From: Oscillospiraceae bacterium
GTDB lineage: Bacteria; Bacillota; Clostridia; Saccharofermentanales; Saccharofermentanaceae
Direction of reading: 5' to 3'
Length of the DNA: 64,000 bases
NCBI GenBank assembly: GCA_902780785.1
Contig: CACZGS010000001.1
Span: 248,001 to 312,000 of the forward strand
Part shown: in pieces, positions 6,651-59,417 of the stretch
Position numbering within the stretch: position 1 is the first letter of the stretch
Layout of the letters: every line of letters begins with the position of its first letter
Position numbers and translations under genes: made by a program
Notes under the pieces: generated by a model
What the model saw: only the letters and a program-made list of their open reading frames with translations
Told to the model about the DNA's origin: nothing
Database searches by the model: none

Positions 6651-9600
6651 ATGAAGTTCTCGGCTGAACAGGAAAAGATAATCAACGCGGAACTTGGTAA
6701 CAACCTCGTTTCCGCATCCGCAGGATCAGGCAAGACGACCGTCCTTACTGCAAGGATCGGTGATGAAGTAATGAGCGGCAGGCTTTCGGTCGACAACATG
6801 CTCGTTGTAACTTTCACCGAAGATGCAGCCGCACATATGGCTGACAAGATCGAAGAGAAATTAAGAAGTCTTAGGAATGAGGCTGTTCTTAACGGAGATA
6901 ATGAGATGGCCGCAAGGCTCTCGACGCAGATAGATCTCCTGCCTAATGCTTATATCCAGACAATGCACGGATTCTGCTCACGAGTAATCAAGGAGAAGGG
7001 CTACCTTCTTGAAGATGGTCCGATGGCTGATTTTACGGATCCTTCATGCAGGATATTAAGTGACAGCGAGCAGGGTGTATTGCTCCAGACTGCAGTAGAT
7101 TATGCATTCAAGGGCATGTACGAAGAGTGCACCTCAGAAGATGATAACTTTATCAGGTTCACAAGAAGATTCGGCGACGGCAGGAGCGATGATTCTCTTG
7201 CAGGCATCGTAACGGGCACATATAAGACTTTGAGAAGTTTGCCGGATTATCTTGATGTCTGCGAAGATTTCGTAGCTGACAGGGAAGAACGTGACAGCAA
7301 AGACCAGATCATGTATTTCAAAGGTGAGAATGAGATACCGCGTGTTATCACCGAATATCTTGCCAACGTTAAGGCCATGATCGAAGACAGCGATTTTGAT
7401 TCTGTTCTTGCAGAGCACGATACATATCAGATCGTTGAAGAATATTCCAACGATGAGTTCATAAGCCTGGTTAAGAGCAGGATAGATAACGTTATTGAGC
7501 ACTATAAGACCCATAAGGGTGCTGATTTCTTCAGTTCGCTGATACCGCTAAAGGAACTTGGCGAGCTTAAGTTTAAGACTATCTTCAGAAATGCCGATCT
7601 TAAGGGCGACGATAAGCCTTTGCTTGCGATCGTTACATTAAGGCACTTCCTGACACCTGACAAGTGGGCTGATTCCAAATACGATAACCCCTATGACCTG
7701 CCTGAAGAGATAAGCAGTCTCATCGGGTTTACCGAAGAGCAGATCCTCGCAAACCAGAAAGAGGGAACCAAGGCCTGCAGGGCATTTGTCGATCTTTTGA
7801 AGAAGACTGACGAATACTATGCAAAGGTTAAGAATAACATGCACGGCATGGATTATTCGGACCTCGAACATACTGCATATGAGATCTTAAAGACTGAGGA
7901 AGCATCTTCGTTTTACCGTGAGAAGTTTACCGAGATCTTCGTCGATGAGTATCAGGACAATACGAGACTTCAGGATAAGATAATCGAGAAATTTGAGAGG
8001 CCTGAAGGCAATGTTTTCCGTGTAGGCGATATCAAGCAGAGTATCTATAAATTCCGTTTTGCGGATCCGAAGATCTTCGGCACGAGAATGAAGGAGATCG
8101 CTTCAGGCGAGCAGAAGGGAACGGTTCATTACTTAAGGGAGAACCACAGAAGCACATGTGAAGTCCTTGCCTTTGCCAATTATGTCTTCAATCAGATAAT
8201 GAGCGGTGAAGCATCCGAGATCGAATATGATCTGAGCCAGCGCCTGAGCAAAGCGGATGAGACACGTCACGGTGCAATACCGAGGATAATCGTTACTGAC
8301 AGCGCGGTCCCTGAAGAAGATGACGGCGATAAGACAAAGCCTGAAAGAAGGGCTGTCTTTGCAGCTGTTGAGAGCGAAGTCAGAAGATATCTGGAAGAGT
8401 GCACCAGAGTTGACGGAAGCAAGACTGAATTTAAGGATATCTGCATTCTTACGGCATCTAATAACCAGGCAGAGTCAATAGCGAGATATCTTAACGGATG
8501 CACGTTAAAAGACGGCAGGAAGATCGAAGCATCAGGAAGGTTTACGACTGATGTTTTCGAAGACCTGGATATCCACAGGCTGATCAATTTCCTCATCTGC
8601 CTCGGCAACGAATACAGGGACGAGTATCTCGCAGGCGTAATGCTCTCAAATTACAAGTTTTCGAATTTCACGGTTGCGGAGATCGCTGATATCCAGGCAT
8701 TTATCCACGAGCTTGAAGGCTTCCCGGTTGAGAAGGAACCTTTGATGTTAAGACTCAGGATCTTTGCCGAGAAATGCGGCAACGAACTTGCCTTAAGAGT
8801 CAGGAACTTCCTTGATGTTTTCGACAGGATAAGAATGAGTTCCATGGTATCTGATATCGATGACATCATCGAAATGATCTACCGTGAGACCGGCATCAAG
8901 GCTACTCTGGAGGCAAGAGAAGGTGACAGCAGCAAGTTCGATGTCTTTAAAGACTGGCTGTCAGAGAGCTTCAAATTAAGGGGTTCTGACCTCTCCGGTA
9001 TCGCAAGTGAGCTTGAGCAGATGAAGATCCAGATCAAGAAGGCTGACATCGAAGTAACTGATGCCAACAAGAATAAGATCACCACAATGACCGTCCATAA
9101 GAGTAAAGGTCTTGAATTCCCGTTCGTTATCCTTGTTGCGACAGGCGGACAGGACGAGAGAAAGGACACTCTTGCAAGCATAATGTTCGACCGTGACGAC
9201 GGCTTCATTACCGAGGATTTCAACTTTGAAGACATTACGAGAGCGCATTCTTTCGAGCAGTATATCTACAAGATGAAGATGCGGCTTGAGAGCAATGCCG
9301 AGACATGCAGGCTTCTCTATGTAGCACTTACACGTGCGGAAGAAGATCTGTCGATAATCACGAGCTGCGACATAGACGATAAGTCTAAGATGAGTCCCAT
9401 GAGAAAGGCCTTTACTCAGGCTATTGATTATAAGGATCTGCAGTTCGACAAGAGGCACTGGCTCGCAGGAGACATGAAGCTCCCGTATTGCCTTTTCAGT
9501 GCTCTTGCAAGAAGTGCTGACGGCGCAAAGTTAAGGGAGATCGCCGAATCCGGTGATCTCAAGGGAAGCAATACGGTTGCGTTCAAAGACCTGGATGGCA

Positions 9601-24119: not shown

Positions 24120-24815
24120 TTATGCTTTCTTCTTCGGCGCCGGCTTGCCTTTGCAGCGCTCGATCATCTCGTCTGCATCCCTGTAGCCGCGTACCTTCTC
24201 AAATTCGTTCAGGGCGCTCTTGTAAGACTTGTTGGCAAAGAAATGCTTGCCTCTGCAGTAGATCTCAAAACGCTTAACGTTAGCAAGGCCCTCGTTGCAG
24301 AACTTGATAAGCTCAGAGGTAACCGGATCATTTAACTTGTTGCATTCTTCTATGGCCTGCTCGAAAAGGAGTTTTGCCTCATCTGCCGAAGCGAGCGTTG
24401 TCTTGTTGTTTAAGATCGTATTTGCCTTTTTAATGGATGTGACTATGCGGTTGTACTTGGAGTAACCGGGATAGATTTCAACGATGCGTCTCTTCTTTCC
24501 GCAGTTAGCGCATTCGCAGGTGCCGTCAAAATGGTTGTGTTTGAGTTCTCCGCCGCACATCTTGCAGTTCGTCGGGAGCTCGTCAGACTTAGGAGTCTCA
24601 GGAGCAACTTCAACTTCTTTTTCCAGTAATGTATCAACGGAGACCTCATAGAACTCCGCGATCCTTTGGATCATTATCTTATCAGGATATGCACGGCCTG
24701 CTTCCCATCTGTAGATATAGATATCCGGAACTTTTAAAGCGGCTGCCACAACCTCCTGAGTGAGCGAGTAGCTTTCTCTTAACCTCTTCATGTTTTCGGC
24801 AAGAATAGTATCCAT
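24120..24815 (-). CDS. XRE-family regulator with zinc ribbon and helical C-terminus
   Basis: The 231-aa protein has an N-terminal HTH (MKRLRESYSLTQEVVAAALKVPDIYIYRWEAG), a zinc ribbon at about 83-105 (CKMCGG and CECANCGKK), and a helical repeat-like C-terminus (SYKSALNEFEKVRGYRDADEMIERCKG) that ends in a Lys/Pro tail. The layout is like the 1780 gene with an added helical part. It is the last gene of a minus-strand group starting at 26287 and is probably co-transcribed with the 349-aa gene 24 bp upstream. The target is unknown. Confidence 0.8.
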   Translation of the reverse strand: MDTILAENMKRLRESYSLTQEVVAAALKVPDIYIYRWEAGRAYPDKIMIQRIAEFYEVSVDTLLEKEVEVAPETPKSDELPTNCKMCGGELKHNHFDGTCECANCGKKRRIVEIYPGYSKYNRIVTSIKKANTILNNKTTLASADEAKLLFEQAIEECNKLNDPVTSELIKFCNEGLANVKRFEIYCRGKHFFANKSYKSALNEFEKVRGYRDADEMIERCKGKPAPKKKA

Positions 24816-53626: not shown

Positions 53627-54655
53627 ATGAGCAAATCAAAGAACAAGAGCATTAAGCCTCAGGAAAATGAGATTAAAGAGATAGAAGAACTCGAAGCTGA
53701 CGCAGAAGAGACCATCGAAGCATCAGTCGAAGAGAATGCTGAGGAGATCACGGAAGAAGCTGAAGAGACTGTTTCAGAGGATATCGAAGCAGCCGAAGAA
53801 GATGAGACCGTAGAATCCGCAGAAGATGAAGCAGAAGAAGAGAAAGAGCCTGTAAAGGTCTCCAAGAAAAAGGCCGAAGTAAAGAAGGCCTCCTCATCAT
53901 CCAAGGAGGACGAGGAATTCAGACAGCTTCCCTTTGTCGAGAAGTGCAGGAAAGATCCCGTCATTCCCGTTTGCATCTTACTTGCGATCCTGGCACTGAT
54001 AGTTGCCGGAATCTATTTCATGCTTCCCAATCTGCTGACACCTTCAATGGGCATGACTCTTTCCGAATTCCAGTCAAGATATAATGACGGCCAGGTCTCC
54101 GCATCACTCATCAACAGCGGTGTGGACATTACTTTCAGAACACCGGAATACGTCGATATCACGGCTCAGCCGAGCATCCTGGGAGATAAGGCTGTAGTTA
54201 CTGCAAAGACTGCCTATGCTGATTTCTTCAGCGGCCCTTTCAAGTATTACTCCATCGGAGGTGTTGAAGGTGCTACAAGAAAGAGTGACAAGGCGCTCTC
54301 TTACATAAGGGTTTATGTCAATTACAGCGACGAGGATTTCAACAGCGTTTGGATGTATGCATCAAATACCATAAGCGCTCTTTATCCCAATCTTACCAGG
54401 TATCAGGCTATGGATCTCGGAATGAAGATCATGGGTGAATATGACGGTGATGAAAGATTCTATGTAAAGGGTGACTATGCATTCAGGCTCGTAGCAGTAA
54501 AGAAAACTGCTGACGGCGGCGGAGAACTCGTTTATATCGTCATCGACTGTGTACCGAGATCAGCAATCAAAGACTCACAGATCAGGGAAGAGGTTGCAGA
54601 TCCTGTAATAGGCGAAGGTGAGGAGACAACCGCAGCGAGCACGTCTACCACATAA
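53627..54655 (+). CDS. Acidic-tail single-pass membrane protein of unknown function
   Basis: 342 aa in three parts: a very acidic low-complexity N-terminus (residues about 10-75, Glu/Ala-rich) with a following Lys/Ser-rich patch, one helix (VIPVCILLAILALIVAGIYFML, about 112-134), and an extracytoplasmic part of about 200 residues (TLSEFQSRYNDGQVSASL, GPFKYYSIGGVEGATRKS) ending in a Thr/Ser tail. No family is recognised. CGGAGGATT precedes ATG. It is followed by the hairpin that precedes the zinc-ribbon array. Confidence 0.75.
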   Translation: MSKSKNKSIKPQENEIKEIEELEADAEETIEASVEENAEEITEEAEETVSEDIEAAEEDETVESAEDEAEEEKEPVKVSKKKAEVKKASSSSKEDEEFRQLPFVEKCRKDPVIPVCILLAILALIVAGIYFMLPNLLTPSMGMTLSEFQSRYNDGQVSASLINSGVDITFRTPEYVDITAQPSILGDKAVVTAKTAYADFFSGPFKYYSIGGVEGATRKSDKALSYIRVYVNYSDEDFNSVWMYASNTISALYPNLTRYQAMDLGMKIMGEYDGDERFYVKGDYAFRLVAVKKTADGGGELVYIVIDCVPRSAIKDSQIREEVADPVIGEGEETTAASTSTT

Positions 54656-54676: not shown

Positions 54677-54739
54677 TTTACAAAACCCCCGTCAAATCTT
54701 ATTCTTTATTTAGGGACTAGATTTGCGGGGGTAGTTTTT
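54677..54739 (+). promoter_or_regulatory. Promoter nested in a terminator-like hairpin before the paralogue array
   Basis: ACCCCCG-T-CAAATCT (54685-54699) pairs with AGATTTGCGGGGGT (54719-54732) with one bulged T. Five T (54735-54739) and ATG 54740 follow. TTTACA (54677-54682), a 17-bp spacer and TATTCT (54700-54705) place a -10 in the loop. The right arm holds the GGGGG that serves as SD. Confidence 0.65.
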
Positions 54740-55762
54740 ATGGCAAGAGGCGGTTTCCACGGAGGCAGTACACATTCAGGCGGACACCATTCCGGTGGCG
54801 GCGGCTTTCACGGCGGCGGTGGCGGTCACTTTAGCGGTGGCGGTGGCGGCGGCCATTACGGTGGTGGTGGCGGCGGCAGTCATTACAGCTCCGGCGGCGG
54901 CGGTGGCGGTGATATCAGCGGCTGCGCTGTTCTTGTCGGTGCCATGATCTTCGGAACCATATATGTGACTGTCCAATTCTTTAAGGCGCTGACAGAGGGT
55001 GATATTCCAGGCCTTAACCTGATAAATCTCACAGTATTCGTTGTGGGCGCCTTTTTGTTCATTGCAAGTTTTAAGCATTCCAAAAGGACTTCCGCGCTTA
55101 TCGATCTCCGCAGCAACGGCACGTCAAAATCTTACGTATACAGTGATTCATATACCTGTGAGAGGATCGGAAGCAAGGAGACCTGGGCCGGGAAAAACGA
55201 CAAGAGCTACCGCATCGCATTCTATGGTATGGAGCAGGGCAATAAGAACTGCGCCGAAGTCCTTAATACCATGAAGAGAACGCCCAGGATCATCTGGATA
55301 AGACCGGGCACATGGCTCTGCATTTTCATTGCGATCTTTTTTGCGAATTTCTTTTTCTACGAATGCATAATTCCAATCTTCGAAAACATGATCATGAGCG
55401 ATTTTGCCTTTATGTTTTTCGATGAATTAACATTCTATCTGCCGTGTGTCATAGCGCTCGGATGTCCTATCTTAAGCCTTGTTTTCGTTAAGGTCAGAGA
55501 CAAGATCCTTCATGAGTGTGCGGTAAGGATAGCATCTGAGATCAAGACAGAGGAGAAGATCGTCGAGACGGAAACGTTCATTAAGAACGAGATCGGCAAG
55601 AAGTGGTATCACAATATCTGTCCTAACTGCGGAGCCAGAGCAACTGCATCTCTCAAGCACTGTGTCAGCTGCGGAAGCTCATTGGAAGTCATGGAAGGTG
55701 ACAGGAACCTGAATTCCATAAGGCACGTAAGAGAGGACGATCTTACTGACTTCAAGGGTTAA
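54740..55762 (+). CDS. Gly/His-tag zinc-ribbon membrane protein 1 (array member)
   Basis: 340 aa. The N-terminus is MARGGFHGGSTHSGG followed by about 45 residues almost only of Gly, His and Ser. Two helices come next (about 58-80 and 90-110), then a soluble loop with SKETWAGKNDKSYRIAFYG and MKRTPRIIWIRPGTW, two more helices, and a coiled segment (ASEIKTEEKIVETETF). It ends in a zinc ribbon, CPNCGARATASLKHCVSCGSSLE. The Gly/His part resembles a metal-binding or phase-separating tail. Function is unknown. It is the first of five related genes with a shared promoter region. Confidence 0.8.
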   Translation: MARGGFHGGSTHSGGHHSGGGGFHGGGGGHFSGGGGGGHYGGGGGGSHYSSGGGGGGDISGCAVLVGAMIFGTIYVTVQFFKALTEGDIPGLNLINLTVFVVGAFLFIASFKHSKRTSALIDLRSNGTSKSYVYSDSYTCERIGSKETWAGKNDKSYRIAFYGMEQGNKNCAEVLNTMKRTPRIIWIRPGTWLCIFIAIFFANFFFYECIIPIFENMIMSDFAFMFFDELTFYLPCVIALGCPILSLVFVKVRDKILHECAVRIASEIKTEEKIVETETFIKNEIGKKWYHNICPNCGARATASLKHCVSCGSSLEVMEGDRNLNSIRHVREDDLTDFKG

Positions 55763-55781
55763 CTGTTTAGCGGAGGCTGAG

Positions 55782-56837
55782 ATGGCAAGCGGCGGATTTC
55801 ACGGGGGAAGCACCCACTCAGGCGGTTTTCACAGCTCCGGCGGCGGAGGTGGTTTTCATAGCTCCGGATGGGGCAGCGGAGGCGGCAGTTTCCGCAGCTC
55901 CGGCAGCAGTGACGGCTACAGCAGTGATCGTGACAGCTTCAGCGAATATGGCCCGGTAAGTGAAACGGACCGTATTGTATACACTGTCATATTAGCTATA
56001 GGCGGTATCTTCGTACTTATTTACTTTTTTTCCCCCTTATTGAATCTTCTTGCATTTAGTCTTGTTACTTTGCCTGTTTTTATCGTATGTTCTGTTTTGC
56101 TTTTCTTTGGCCTAAAAGAGAGTAAGAGGACTGTATCTATCAGAAGGCTTTTGAAAAACGGTCCGACCAGAACACCGGGCCATGTATGGAGCAGGAAACA
56201 GAAGAATAAGGATGTGACTGACGGCAAGTCGTTTTACGGAGCGCGTAAGACGTATGATATCAATTTGTTTGACCCTGATTTCGGAGATGCTAATTCACAA
56301 AAGGTCTATGACATGGTAATAATGACTCCCGGGATCATCTGGATCAAGCCTGCTAAACTTCTCGGCGGAGCGGTAATCTCTTTTATTGTTAATATTTTCT
56401 TCGGTCCGATGGTTATATACGCACTTAAGGATTCGGTCATTATGAATCTGGGTTTCATTCGTCTTCTCCTGTTCTATTTACCTTCGATTGTATGCCTGAT
56501 CCTTTCCGCTTACAGCCTGATCGTAGTCAAGATCAAAGACGATCTTCTTTACAAGTGCGCGGTAAAAATAGTTGAAGACAATAACGCCAATAAGAAACAT
56601 GCGGATACCGTGAATAAGACTGCATACGCAGCAAGCCCGACATGGTACTACAATATATGCCCAAACTGCGGGACAAAGGCGACTGAGAGAGATAAAGTCT
56701 GCTCACGCTGTGATTCTTCCTTGGAGGCGGATTTTAAGAACGGCGGAAGACCGTCATCGTGTCACCGCGTATTTGAATATAACCCAAAGAAAAAGCCTGT
56801 TTCCGAAGGTGAAGTAAAGGAGAAGACGGACACATGA
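55782..56837 (+). CDS. Gly/His-tag zinc-ribbon membrane protein 2 (array member)
   Basis: 351 aa, starting MASGGFHGGSTHSGGFHSSG, with a Gly/Ser-rich stretch to about residue 45. Helices, the loop MVIMTPGIIWIKPAKLL (cognate to the RTPRIIWIRPGTW block of the others) and the C-terminal ribbon CPNCGTKATERDKVCSRCDSSLE follow. It is the most divergent of the full-length copies. It begins 19 bp after gene 1 with GCGGAGG as SD and overlaps gene 3 by 4 bp. Confidence 0.8.
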   Translation: MASGGFHGGSTHSGGFHSSGGGGGFHSSGWGSGGGSFRSSGSSDGYSSDRDSFSEYGPVSETDRIVYTVILAIGGIFVLIYFFSPLLNLLAFSLVTLPVFIVCSVLLFFGLKESKRTVSIRRLLKNGPTRTPGHVWSRKQKNKDVTDGKSFYGARKTYDINLFDPDFGDANSQKVYDMVIMTPGIIWIKPAKLLGGAVISFIVNIFFGPMVIYALKDSVIMNLGFIRLLLFYLPSIVCLILSAYSLIVVKIKDDLLYKCAVKIVEDNNANKKHADTVNKTAYAASPTWYYNICPNCGTKATERDKVCSRCDSSLEADFKNGGRPSSCHRVFEYNPKKKPVSEGEVKEKTDT

Positions 56838-57277
56838 AGAGATTTTTCAAATACTCGCATATCATAGGCATAATCGGTATAGTTGTTAACCTGATCCTGT
56901 TCATGACTAACAGGTACTATGAACTTGTGATCCCCTTCTTTGAGAATACGATGGAAGACGGGTATCTTTTCACATTTATCGATTACCTTACGTACTTAAC
57001 GCCCATGATCTTTATGGTTCTGTTCCTGGCGTATCTTATTGCCGGAAGGATCTATATGAGGAATCACAACCTCAAGGTCGAAGAACAGGAGACGGTAAAG
57101 CTCGTTGAGAAGAATAACGAGATCCAAAAGTCTTTGGACGAGAAGGCGGAGTTTCTTAAGCATAAGTATTACACCAATTGCCCGAACTGCGGAGCTGCAA
57201 GGCAGGAGAACAGGAATGTATGTGTTTTCTGCGGCGCTTCGCTGATAATCGGGAATAACAAAGACAAAAAAGAGTAA
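56834..57277 (+). CDS. Zinc-ribbon membrane protein 3 (short array member without tag)
   Basis: 147 aa. It lacks the Gly/His start and the first helix pair. It keeps two helices (IIGIIGIVVNLILFMTNRYYELVIPFF and FIDYLTYLTPMIFMVLFLAYLIA, read in pieces), a coiled segment and the ribbon CPNCGAARQENRNVCVFCGASL. It aligns with the C-terminal half of its neighbours, so it looks like a truncated but intact copy. The ATG overlaps the gene 2 stop. Confidence 0.78.
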   Translation: MKRFFKYSHIIGIIGIVVNLILFMTNRYYELVIPFFENTMEDGYLFTFIDYLTYLTPMIFMVLFLAYLIAGRIYMRNHNLKVEEQETVKLVEKNNEIQKSLDEKAEFLKHKYYTNCPNCGAARQENRNVCVFCGASLIIGNNKDKKE

Positions 57278-57297
57278 CCTGTTGACCGGAGGAGAAG

Positions 57298-58353
57298 ATG
57301 GCAGGCGGCAGTTTCCACAGCGGCAGTTCCCATTCAGGAAGCTATCACAGTTCCGGAGGCGGTTCTCACAGCTCCGGCGGCGGCAGCCACTATAGCAGTG
57401 GCGGCAGCAGTCATCACAGCAGCGGTGGTGGCGGCGGTGGTGGCGGCGGCTCCGGCGGCAGCAGTGGCGGAAGTGGCACCGGCAGCTGTTTGTTAGTGAT
57501 CCTCTTTTTCTTCACGCCGTTTTTGCATTTGATCATTCAATTTCTTTTCGCAGTATGTAATGAAGAGATTGCCGGCTTTAACGCAACAAATCTCGCTATT
57601 TTCGTTTTTACCGGATTCATGTTCATTCCGAGCATTATAGAGTCTAAAAGGACTGCTGCACTTGTTGAGCTGCGTCAGTCAGGCCAGTCAGACCGTTACG
57701 TTTACAGTGCTGTTAATACCGGCGACTGGAACGGCAGCAGGGATACCATGGCAGGCAAGAATAACAAGCTGTACCGCATTGCGTTTTACGGTACGGAATA
57801 CGGCTGGAAGAACAGCAGGGAAGTTTATAACACTATGAAGAGAACACCCAGGATCATCTGGATAAGGCCTGGTACGTGGGTCGTTATTTCAATCGTGCTC
57901 TTCATTGTGAATTTCTTTTACTACGAGTGTGTCATACCGGTCTTCGAAAGAATGATCATGACCGATTATGCCTTCAAGTTCTTCGATGGATTAACTTTCT
58001 ATCTGCCGTCGTTCCTGGCGTTCAGCTGCGCTGTCTTAAGCCTTGTTTTCGTGGGCGTAAGGGACAAGATCCTGTATGAATGCGCGGTGAGGTTAGCTTC
58101 GGAGATCAAGACTGAAGAGAAGAAGATCGAGACGGAGATGTTCCTTAAGACCGAGACCGGCAAGAAGTGGTATCATAATATCTGTCCGAACTGCGGGGCC
58201 AAAGCTTCTGCATCTCTTAAGCACTGTGTCAGCTGCGGCAGTTCGTTGGAAGTCATGGAAGGTGACAAGTATCTGAATTCAATAAGACGGGTCAGATATG
58301 ACGTTAACACCGGAGAAAAGACCGATCAGTCGACCGGAGGTAAAGATGGCTAG
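57298..58353 (+). CDS. Gly/His-tag zinc-ribbon membrane protein 4 (array member)
   Basis: 351 aa, close to gene 1: MAGGSFHSGSSHSGSYHSSG, a run of Gly/Ser/His to about residue 62, helices, SRDTMAGKNNKLYRIAFYG, MKRTPRIIWIRPGTW, ASEIKTEEKKIETEMF and CPNCGAKASASLKHCVSCGSSLE. Near identity of the last 150 residues with gene 1 points to recent duplication. GGAGGAG precedes ATG. It overlaps gene 5 by 8 bp. Confidence 0.82.
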   Translation: MAGGSFHSGSSHSGSYHSSGGGSHSSGGGSHYSSGGSSHHSSGGGGGGGGGSGGSSGGSGTGSCLLVILFFFTPFLHLIIQFLFAVCNEEIAGFNATNLAIFVFTGFMFIPSIIESKRTAALVELRQSGQSDRYVYSAVNTGDWNGSRDTMAGKNNKLYRIAFYGTEYGWKNSREVYNTMKRTPRIIWIRPGTWVVISIVLFIVNFFYYECVIPVFERMIMTDYAFKFFDGLTFYLPSFLAFSCAVLSLVFVGVRDKILYECAVRLASEIKTEEKKIETEMFLKTETGKKWYHNICPNCGAKASASLKHCVSCGSSLEVMEGDKYLNSIRRVRYDVNTGEKTDQSTGGKDG

Positions 58354-59284
58354 CGGCGGTTTTCACGATACCAGTACACATTCAGGCAGTTTCCACGATT
58401 CCGGCGGTTACGATTCCGGCGGTGGCGGCGGATCCGGTTTGGGTTTTCCTCCGTTATTTATCTCTTTGGATCTGCTGTTTGCCCTGCTTATTGTTTTAGA
58501 GAATTTCTTATCTGAACTTCCCTTCCACCATCTCATATCGATTTTGATCTTCGTTGCTGCATTTGCTTTGTTCATTCCCGGCTATAAGGAAAAGAACAGG
58601 TTTTATGCGATCAATAAGATCAGGAAAAAGGATGTTGAGATTTTCCGCGGAAGCGTCTGGAGTGCCGATTATTCCGATAACCGTGTCGGTAACGAATATG
58701 ACTGGTACGGTAAACTTGACAAGAATTACAGTATCTCATTCTTTGACAGGACATATGGAAGCGATAATGTGAAGACTGTCAGGCAGGCTGTAAAAAGGAC
58801 TCCGAGGATCATCTGGGTGAACACGACCACCTGGCTCGCCTGGGCAATTGTCTGCGCCGTATGCAATCTTTTCTTTTATAAACTTGTCATTCCGTACTTC
58901 GAAAGAATGTATATGACCGATGCGGCATTTGCATTTTTCGATTTCCTGATATTTTTCCTGCCTCCTGTACTGGCATTACTCTTTGCTTTCTTCAGCTTTA
59001 TATTTGTAAAAGCCAAGGACAAGGTGCTGTATGAGTGCGCTGTCAGGGTTGTTGCCGATAACCGCGCGAAAGAGCATAAATTGAGAACTGAAAGAAATAT
59101 CGACAGGAAACTCAGCAATAAGTGGTATTACAACAATTGTCCGAACTGCGGCGCAAAAGCTTCGGATTTTATGAAAAACTGTTCTCATTGCGGTACTTCG
59201 CTGGAGGTTAGTTCGTTTGCAGGCGGCACTGCAGGTGCTATCCACCGCCTGATCAAAACCGCGGATAACGAAGACAAACTCTGA
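58346..59284 (+). CDS. Gly/His-tag zinc-ribbon membrane protein 5 (array member)
   Basis: 312 aa, starting MASGGFHDTSTHSGSFHDSG with a short tag of about 30 residues. Then come two helices (LLFALLIVLENFLSEL, ILIFVAAFALFIPGY), VKRTPRIIWVNTTTWLA, two more helices and the ribbon CPNCGAKASDFMKNCSHCGTSLE. ATG 58346 has CGGAGG 7 bp upstream and lies inside the end of gene 4. It is the last gene of the array, followed by a terminator. Confidence 0.8.
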   Translation: MASGGFHDTSTHSGSFHDSGGYDSGGGGGSGLGFPPLFISLDLLFALLIVLENFLSELPFHHLISILIFVAAFALFIPGYKEKNRFYAINKIRKKDVEIFRGSVWSADYSDNRVGNEYDWYGKLDKNYSISFFDRTYGSDNVKTVRQAVKRTPRIIWVNTTTWLAWAIVCAVCNLFFYKLVIPYFERMYMTDAAFAFFDFLIFFLPPVLALLFAFFSFIFVKAKDKVLYECAVRVVADNRAKEHKLRTERNIDRKLSNKWYYNNCPNCGAKASDFMKNCSHCGTSLEVSSFAGGTAGAIHRLIKTADNEDKL

Positions 59285-59309: not shown

Positions 59310-59341
59310 AAGGAGTTCTTGAATCAAGAACTCCTTAATTT
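59310..59341. terminator. Bidirectional terminator between the array and tRNA-Trp
   Basis: AAGGAGTTCTTGA (59310-59322) / TCAAGAACTCCTT (59324-59336) has AATTTTT on the right and AAGAAAA on the left, serving both strands. Confidence 0.88.
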
Positions 59342-59342
59342 T

Positions 59343-59417
59343 TGGCAGGGGAGACACGATTTGAACGCGCAACCGGCGGTTTTGGAGACCGCTGCTCTAC
59401 CGTTGAGCCACTCCCCT
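59343..59417 (-). tRNA. tRNA-Trp (anticodon CCA)
   Basis: On the minus strand the acceptor AGGGGAG pairs with CTCCCCT. The anticodon stem GCGGT/ACCGC encloses CTCCAAA with anticodon CCA. The T-arm contains GTTCAAAT and the 3' end is G-CCA, encoded as TGG at 59343-59345. It decodes UGG. Confidence 0.95.

Follow-up and report, generated by a model that had tools for sequence, protein, structure and literature searches.

Within the window (the whole 64,000-nucleotide stretch of DNA analysed here), open reading frame analysis places five tandem genes at 54740-59284 on the forward strand, encoding four long proteins and one short one (Table 1); all five reading frames of the array proposed in the first-pass annotation are upheld. 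The sequence features described there are present as well: a Gly/His tag shared from the first residue by the products of genes 1, 2, 4 and 5, the TPxIIW(I/V) loop of the four long proteins and, at the C terminus of all five, a zinc ribbon of the form C-x2-C-x10-C-x2-C (CPxCG...CxxC). Gene 5 begins at 58346 rather than 58298, at an ATG with GGAGG upstream that puts the tag at residue 1, and overlaps gene 4 by 8 bases. The start of gene 3 overlaps the stop of gene 2, and the remaining gaps are 19 and 20 bases. Orthologues of gene 1 occupy the same position in loci L043 and L044. Judged from the sequence, the five genes are one operon, with its own promoter, tightly spaced or overlapping genes and a terminator.

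Table 1. Features of the five-gene array, in window coordinates
Feature	Position	Strand	Remarks
Promoter TTTACA-N17-TATTCT	54677..54705	+	TTTACAAA...TAT[AT][AC]T kept upstream of 21/33 arrays
Hairpin CCCCCG...CGGGGG, then TTTTT, just before first ATG	54685..54732	+	z -5.26
Long gene 1	54740..55762	+	340 aa: tag, 4 TM, TPRIIW loop, stalk helix, ribbon
Gene 1 tag (H7, H12, H17)	54740..54799	+	
Gene 1 zinc ribbon	55619..55672	+	
Long gene 2	55782..56837	+	351 aa; own orthologue group with L043:8862
Gene 2 tag	55782..55841	+	
Gene 2 zinc ribbon	56658..56711	+	
Short gene 3	56834..57277	+	147 aa with 2 TM, a stalk helix and a ribbon; untagged
Gene 3 zinc ribbon	57179..57232	+	
Long gene 4	57298..58353	+	351 aa; structure model m838479e720ac
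Gene 4 tag	57298..57357	+	
Gene 4 zinc ribbon	58183..58236	+	
Long gene 5	58346..59284	+	312 aa, corrected start
Gene 5 tag	58346..58405	+	triad is the sole three His in the tail
Gene 5 zinc ribbon	59138..59191	+	
Terminator-like hairpin closing operon	59310..59336	+	

By score alone, the TTTACA-N17-TATTCT promoter is no better than chance in its region. The related pattern TTTACAAA-N13-16-TAT[AT][AC]T occurs 24-48 bases before the first gene in 21 of 33 arrays, where shuffles average 0.003; because the arrays share ancestry, this recurrence represents conservation and not 21 independent events. In loci of the window type, CCCCCG within the promoter spacer pairs with a CGGGGG next to the start codon, with one compensated pair. 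The resulting hairpin and its T-run are likely the upstream gene's terminator, which overlaps the array promoter. This compact overlap is kept in eight loci. A regulon sharing the promoter-spacer motif was considered and rejected, as the array site is the only occurrence in the genome and no second site was found. A known RNA element in the leader was also rejected, the sole credible Rfam match in the region being a tRNA at 59346-59417.

None of the four ribbon cysteines varies among 50 long and 21 short relatives, and their two CxxC knuckles at fixed spacing predict a zinc site from sequence. Pfam Zn_ribbon_3, DZR and Zn_Ribbon_1 match all five proteins below threshold over some 20 residues, the best scores falling short of the curated cut-offs (24.3 bits versus 27 for Zn_ribbon_3, 23.5 versus 25 for Zn_Ribbon_1). 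No Pfam, NCBIfam or PADLOC family accounts for the array proteins, and literature searches found nothing on them. A role in anti-phage defence was rejected on the lack of any PADLOC model match at E <= 0.01, and carriage as plasmid or phage cargo was likewise rejected for lack of a match. The array proteins are a real, conserved family that corresponds to no described one, in keeping with the initial impression of an unfamiliar family.

Its most distinctive feature is the tag, MA-x-G-[GS]-F-H-x-x-[ST]-[ST]-H-S-G-[GS]-[FHY]-H. All 26 tagged genus proteins compared share G4, H7, H12, G14 and H17; the row set was picked in part by a pattern that fixes G4 and H7, which leaves only H12, G14 and H17 independent of the selection. 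Across the wider alignment the H7/H12/H17 triad is kept in 44 of 44 tagged rows (one with a one-residue offset), in tails of 31-93 residues bearing 3-14 histidines (median 7). In the poorest tails the triad supplies every histidine, and several such tails turn Asp-rich. Codon usage varies synonymously beneath this conservation (CAC/CAT 27/19 at H7, 9/37 at H12). A search of related genomes, as the first-pass annotation had suggested, recovered 46 sites in 21 of 59 genus genomes (reversed-pattern control, 0) and none in the phylum sample's remaining 397 genomes; elsewhere in the array's own 2.84 Mb genome the strict pattern does not recur, even allowing 2 mismatches. Since every readable tag-bearing reading frame in the genus is a member of the array family, a general sorting signal on unrelated proteins was rejected for the genus.

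From triad conservation, synonymous codon change and restriction to the family, we infer that the tag is translated, constrained at the protein level and family-specific. The concern that it might go untranslated is thus answered by this constraint, and also by plausible ribosome-binding sites upstream. Low-complexity filler, retained solely through recent duplication, is a barely credible account of the tag: Gly-rich repeats readily drift and expand and the genes do lie in tandem, but the long copies belong to separate orthologue groups and yet keep the triad in every tagged row, while tail length, composition and codons all change around it. The even spacing of the three histidines (i, i+5, i+10) would be easier to reconcile with a defined binding motif than with a bulk metal sponge. 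The tag is missing from 38 of the 59 genus members sampled, which makes the system dispensable.

Gene 3 had been taken for a copy reduced to its C-terminal half, a reading that the phylogeny does not support. Short proteins form one clade with 100/100 support, apart from all long ones, and constitute a separate and better conserved class beside the long genes across the genus (mean column identity 69%, versus 35% in the long set), found in 28 loci. On the strength of its own clade, gene 3 is best read from these alignments as a distinct, old and highly conserved subunit and not a truncated copy; what looked like a truncated duplicate turns out to be the best conserved member of the set. Its product repeats the hairpin and ribbon pattern of the long proteins, with an outward-facing Y-E-x2-[IV]-P-x2-E...D, a stalk and a ribbon, and it has a basic N terminus and no tail. 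The proposal that tagged and short proteins belong together as unequal subunits gains from their co-occurrence: 26 of 33 tagged loci have a short gene nearby, versus 0 of 11 untagged ones (Fisher p 4e-6, ancestry uncorrected), which suggests that the tail acts in the proposed complex. Loci L049, L054, L056, L069, L074 and L079 are tagged and have no short gene nearby, which shows that some sites do without the partner. In three of these (L054, L056 and L069, ~8001-9038) the protein stands alone and carries a tag subtype, MS[TFS]GDFHGGDTH; beside it lie a second CPNCG protein and a small membrane protein, and in 2 of the 3 loci a tryptophanyl-tRNA synthetase-like gene follows.

A GTDB-wide scan located 45 loci, under the names Saccharofermentans, Ruminococcaceae, Lachnospiraceae or Clostridia and mostly in metagenome-assembled genomes from rumen or gut. 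Full-length relatives are absent from the other sampled families of the order, and the family is, as far as sampled, confined to Saccharofermentans and close kin. In the tree, gene 2 and gene 5 sit in separate groups, each with orthologues from other species; genes 1 and 4, with their orthologues, share a third group and may therefore be the youngest pair. Serial duplication was envisaged at first; most of the long copies are old paralogues, and a recent tandem duplication as the source of the whole array is rejected by the tree. On these groupings the array, taken whole, is old. Untagged relatives of ~270 aa stand alone, one of them in the same genome as the array (L003); their nesting inside the tagged group, on a long branch, suggests that they lost the tag.

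Arrays occupy two main chromosomal sites. The first, that of the window, lies between a coiled single-TM gene and proC; the second is flanked by a ThiT-aquaporin fusion gene on one side and a methionine-synthase-like gene on the other (the last two names assigned by inspection). The upstream protein at the window site (53627-54655) is kept beside arrays there and has a single TM helix, a highly acidic N-terminal half and weak similarity to MapZ, far below cut-off. Upstream of site-2 arrays, L046:5378-6769 and eight other loci encode the fusion of a ThiT-type thiamine ECF component (PF09515) to an aquaporin (PF00230). Elsewhere in the window (24120-24815, reverse strand) is a regulator with an HTH_3 domain followed by a CxxC...CxxC ribbon, homologues of which occur near array-family genes in L047 and L053.

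Hydropathy predicts four helices in each long protein and two in the short one. Basic residues (K/R) of the long proteins are concentrated in the loop after TM2 (14-17) and after TM4 (15-19), with 0-2 in the outer loops; by the positive-inside rule and the structural model, this distribution would place the tail, the TM2-TM3 loop, the stalk and the ribbon in the cytosol (N-in/C-in), and supports the earlier supposition that the tag is cytosolic. An extracellular tail, as a surface or wall-facing feature, is very improbable. Gly/His/Ser low-complexity segments are common among surface proteins and the tail carries little charge, but this orientation would put the basic loop, the stalk and the Cys4 ribbon outside, contrary to the charge distribution; it also sits poorly with the basic N terminus of the short partner, and no signal peptide is apparent.

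An AlphaFold2 model of the gene 4 protein has pLDDT mostly >90 for residues ~70-325 and <50 in the disordered tail. It comprises helices at 62-87, 96-128, 191-217 and 223-289 followed by the ribbon, with a small beta element that includes the TPRIIW segment between TM2 and TM3; the zinc ribbon of the long proteins is carried on a stalk of ~35-45 residues that continues TM4. The short-protein model is of moderate confidence and was left out of the fold search. Searches of solved structures turned up no convincing counterpart: no PDB entry reached E < 1 with Foldseek, and VIA-align scores went no higher than Z 6.8. At the sequence level, the matches of a profile to PDB entries were for the most part ribosomal ribbon proteins and low-complexity segments. 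Conservation is concentrated in the ribbon, the W-rich loop and the TM3-TM4 hairpin (Y209, I213, F216, E217, D223, F226, D230), of which the acidic E217, D223 and D230 lie near the outer face.

These acidic residues and the His-rich tails (median 7, maximum 14) would suit a metal homeostasis device, in which the tails act as cytosolic collectors of Zn, Ni or Cu and feed a membrane path formed by the acidic TM3-TM4 hairpins, for buffering, efflux or uptake. We consider this unlikely, given that several tails have just three histidines and are Asp-rich, and that the membrane helices contain no conserved His and a lone conserved Cys, C262, near the inner end of TM4. Nor do the proteins match a transporter family (CDF/ZIP types are absent among Pfam/NCBIfam matches at E <= 1), and no metal genes were recognised beside the arrays.

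The reading we favour, with a little less than even confidence, is that the family is a membrane-anchored, cytosol-facing scaffold or sensor, in which long paralogues and a short partner would form a hetero-oligomer. Each long protein would be an N-in/C-in four-helix protein displaying a disordered Gly/Ser tail with the three His and a stalked zinc ribbon in the cytosol, and the long paralogues would assemble with the two-helix short partner. For the three-His tails the ligand may be a metal ion or a protein partner, which would make the scaffold metal-responsive or partner-recruiting; the ribbons may mediate assembly, and the acidic outer hairpin could read or stabilise the outer face. A more specific version, an undescribed complex of tailed four-helix paralogues around one two-helix core in which the three-His motif acts with the ribbons as a metal- or partner-gated switch, is doubtful. 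The family has a signature of its own among rumen and gut Saccharofermentans: a strict three-His N-terminal motif joined to one membrane core and a linked small partner. Were both the complex and metal binding true, the array would represent a new module at the bacterial membrane for metal reading or scaffolding in the cytosol.

Several known systems invite comparison. Generic Pfam zinc ribbons have the same C-terminal C-x2-C-x10-C-x2-C knuckles, the rest of the array protein being unrelated to them. ExbB/TolQ/ZorA proteins have a loosely similar long-helix arrangement (VIA-align Z 4.4-5.6), but at an rmsd of ~10 A, with Z within the range of common helical arrangements and no sequence similarity, and they lack the ribbon and the tail; for the ExbB/TolQ/MotA core, Foldseek gave E > 3 and VIA-align Z up to 5.6 at that same rmsd. 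Mycobacterial GroEL1 has a His-rich metal-binding C-terminal tail (PMC10170517), which resembles the array tail in being disordered, rich in histidine and potentially able to bind a transition metal. The array tail differs in being N-terminal, in its i, i+5, i+10 spacing and in its place on a membrane protein, and its metal binding is putative.

The nearest working analogue is the YdjG/YdjH type of Bacillus subtilis, likewise membrane proteins that join zinc ribbons to low-complexity tails. The ribbon and TPM-domain membrane proteins of ydjFGHI are proposed membrane anchors and assembly aids (PMC8581546, PMC11237479), and YdjG and YdjH are required for recruitment of YdjI and PspA (PMC8581546). 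The array could by analogy encode an envelope-stress anchor that recruits a peripheral membrane-protecting protein, a reading that we rate as quite improbable. In its favour are the same ingredients (membrane proteins, zinc ribbons, Gly-rich tails) and the presence in the same genome of a canonical ribbon plus TPM pair with a GGGGGF tail. But the array proteins lack the TPM domain (no PF04536 match at E <= 1), have a different core, with four TM helices or two, and bear an N-terminal tail with a fixed three-His pattern, and their genome (97% complete) has no match to PspA/IM30 (PF04012), for which 9 of 14 control genomes are positive; membership of the PSP envelope-stress system was rejected for lack of PspA. 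The same genome also encodes a protein that combines a looser N-terminal G/S/H tail and TM helices with a weak TPM-like domain and a ribbon at the C terminus (L138:1141-2199, C5), which counts towards the anchor reading, and two sister genomes encode proteins of the same design (L125:799-1779 and L126:709-1854). The tail-plus-ribbon design thus recurs in the genus on more than one membrane core.
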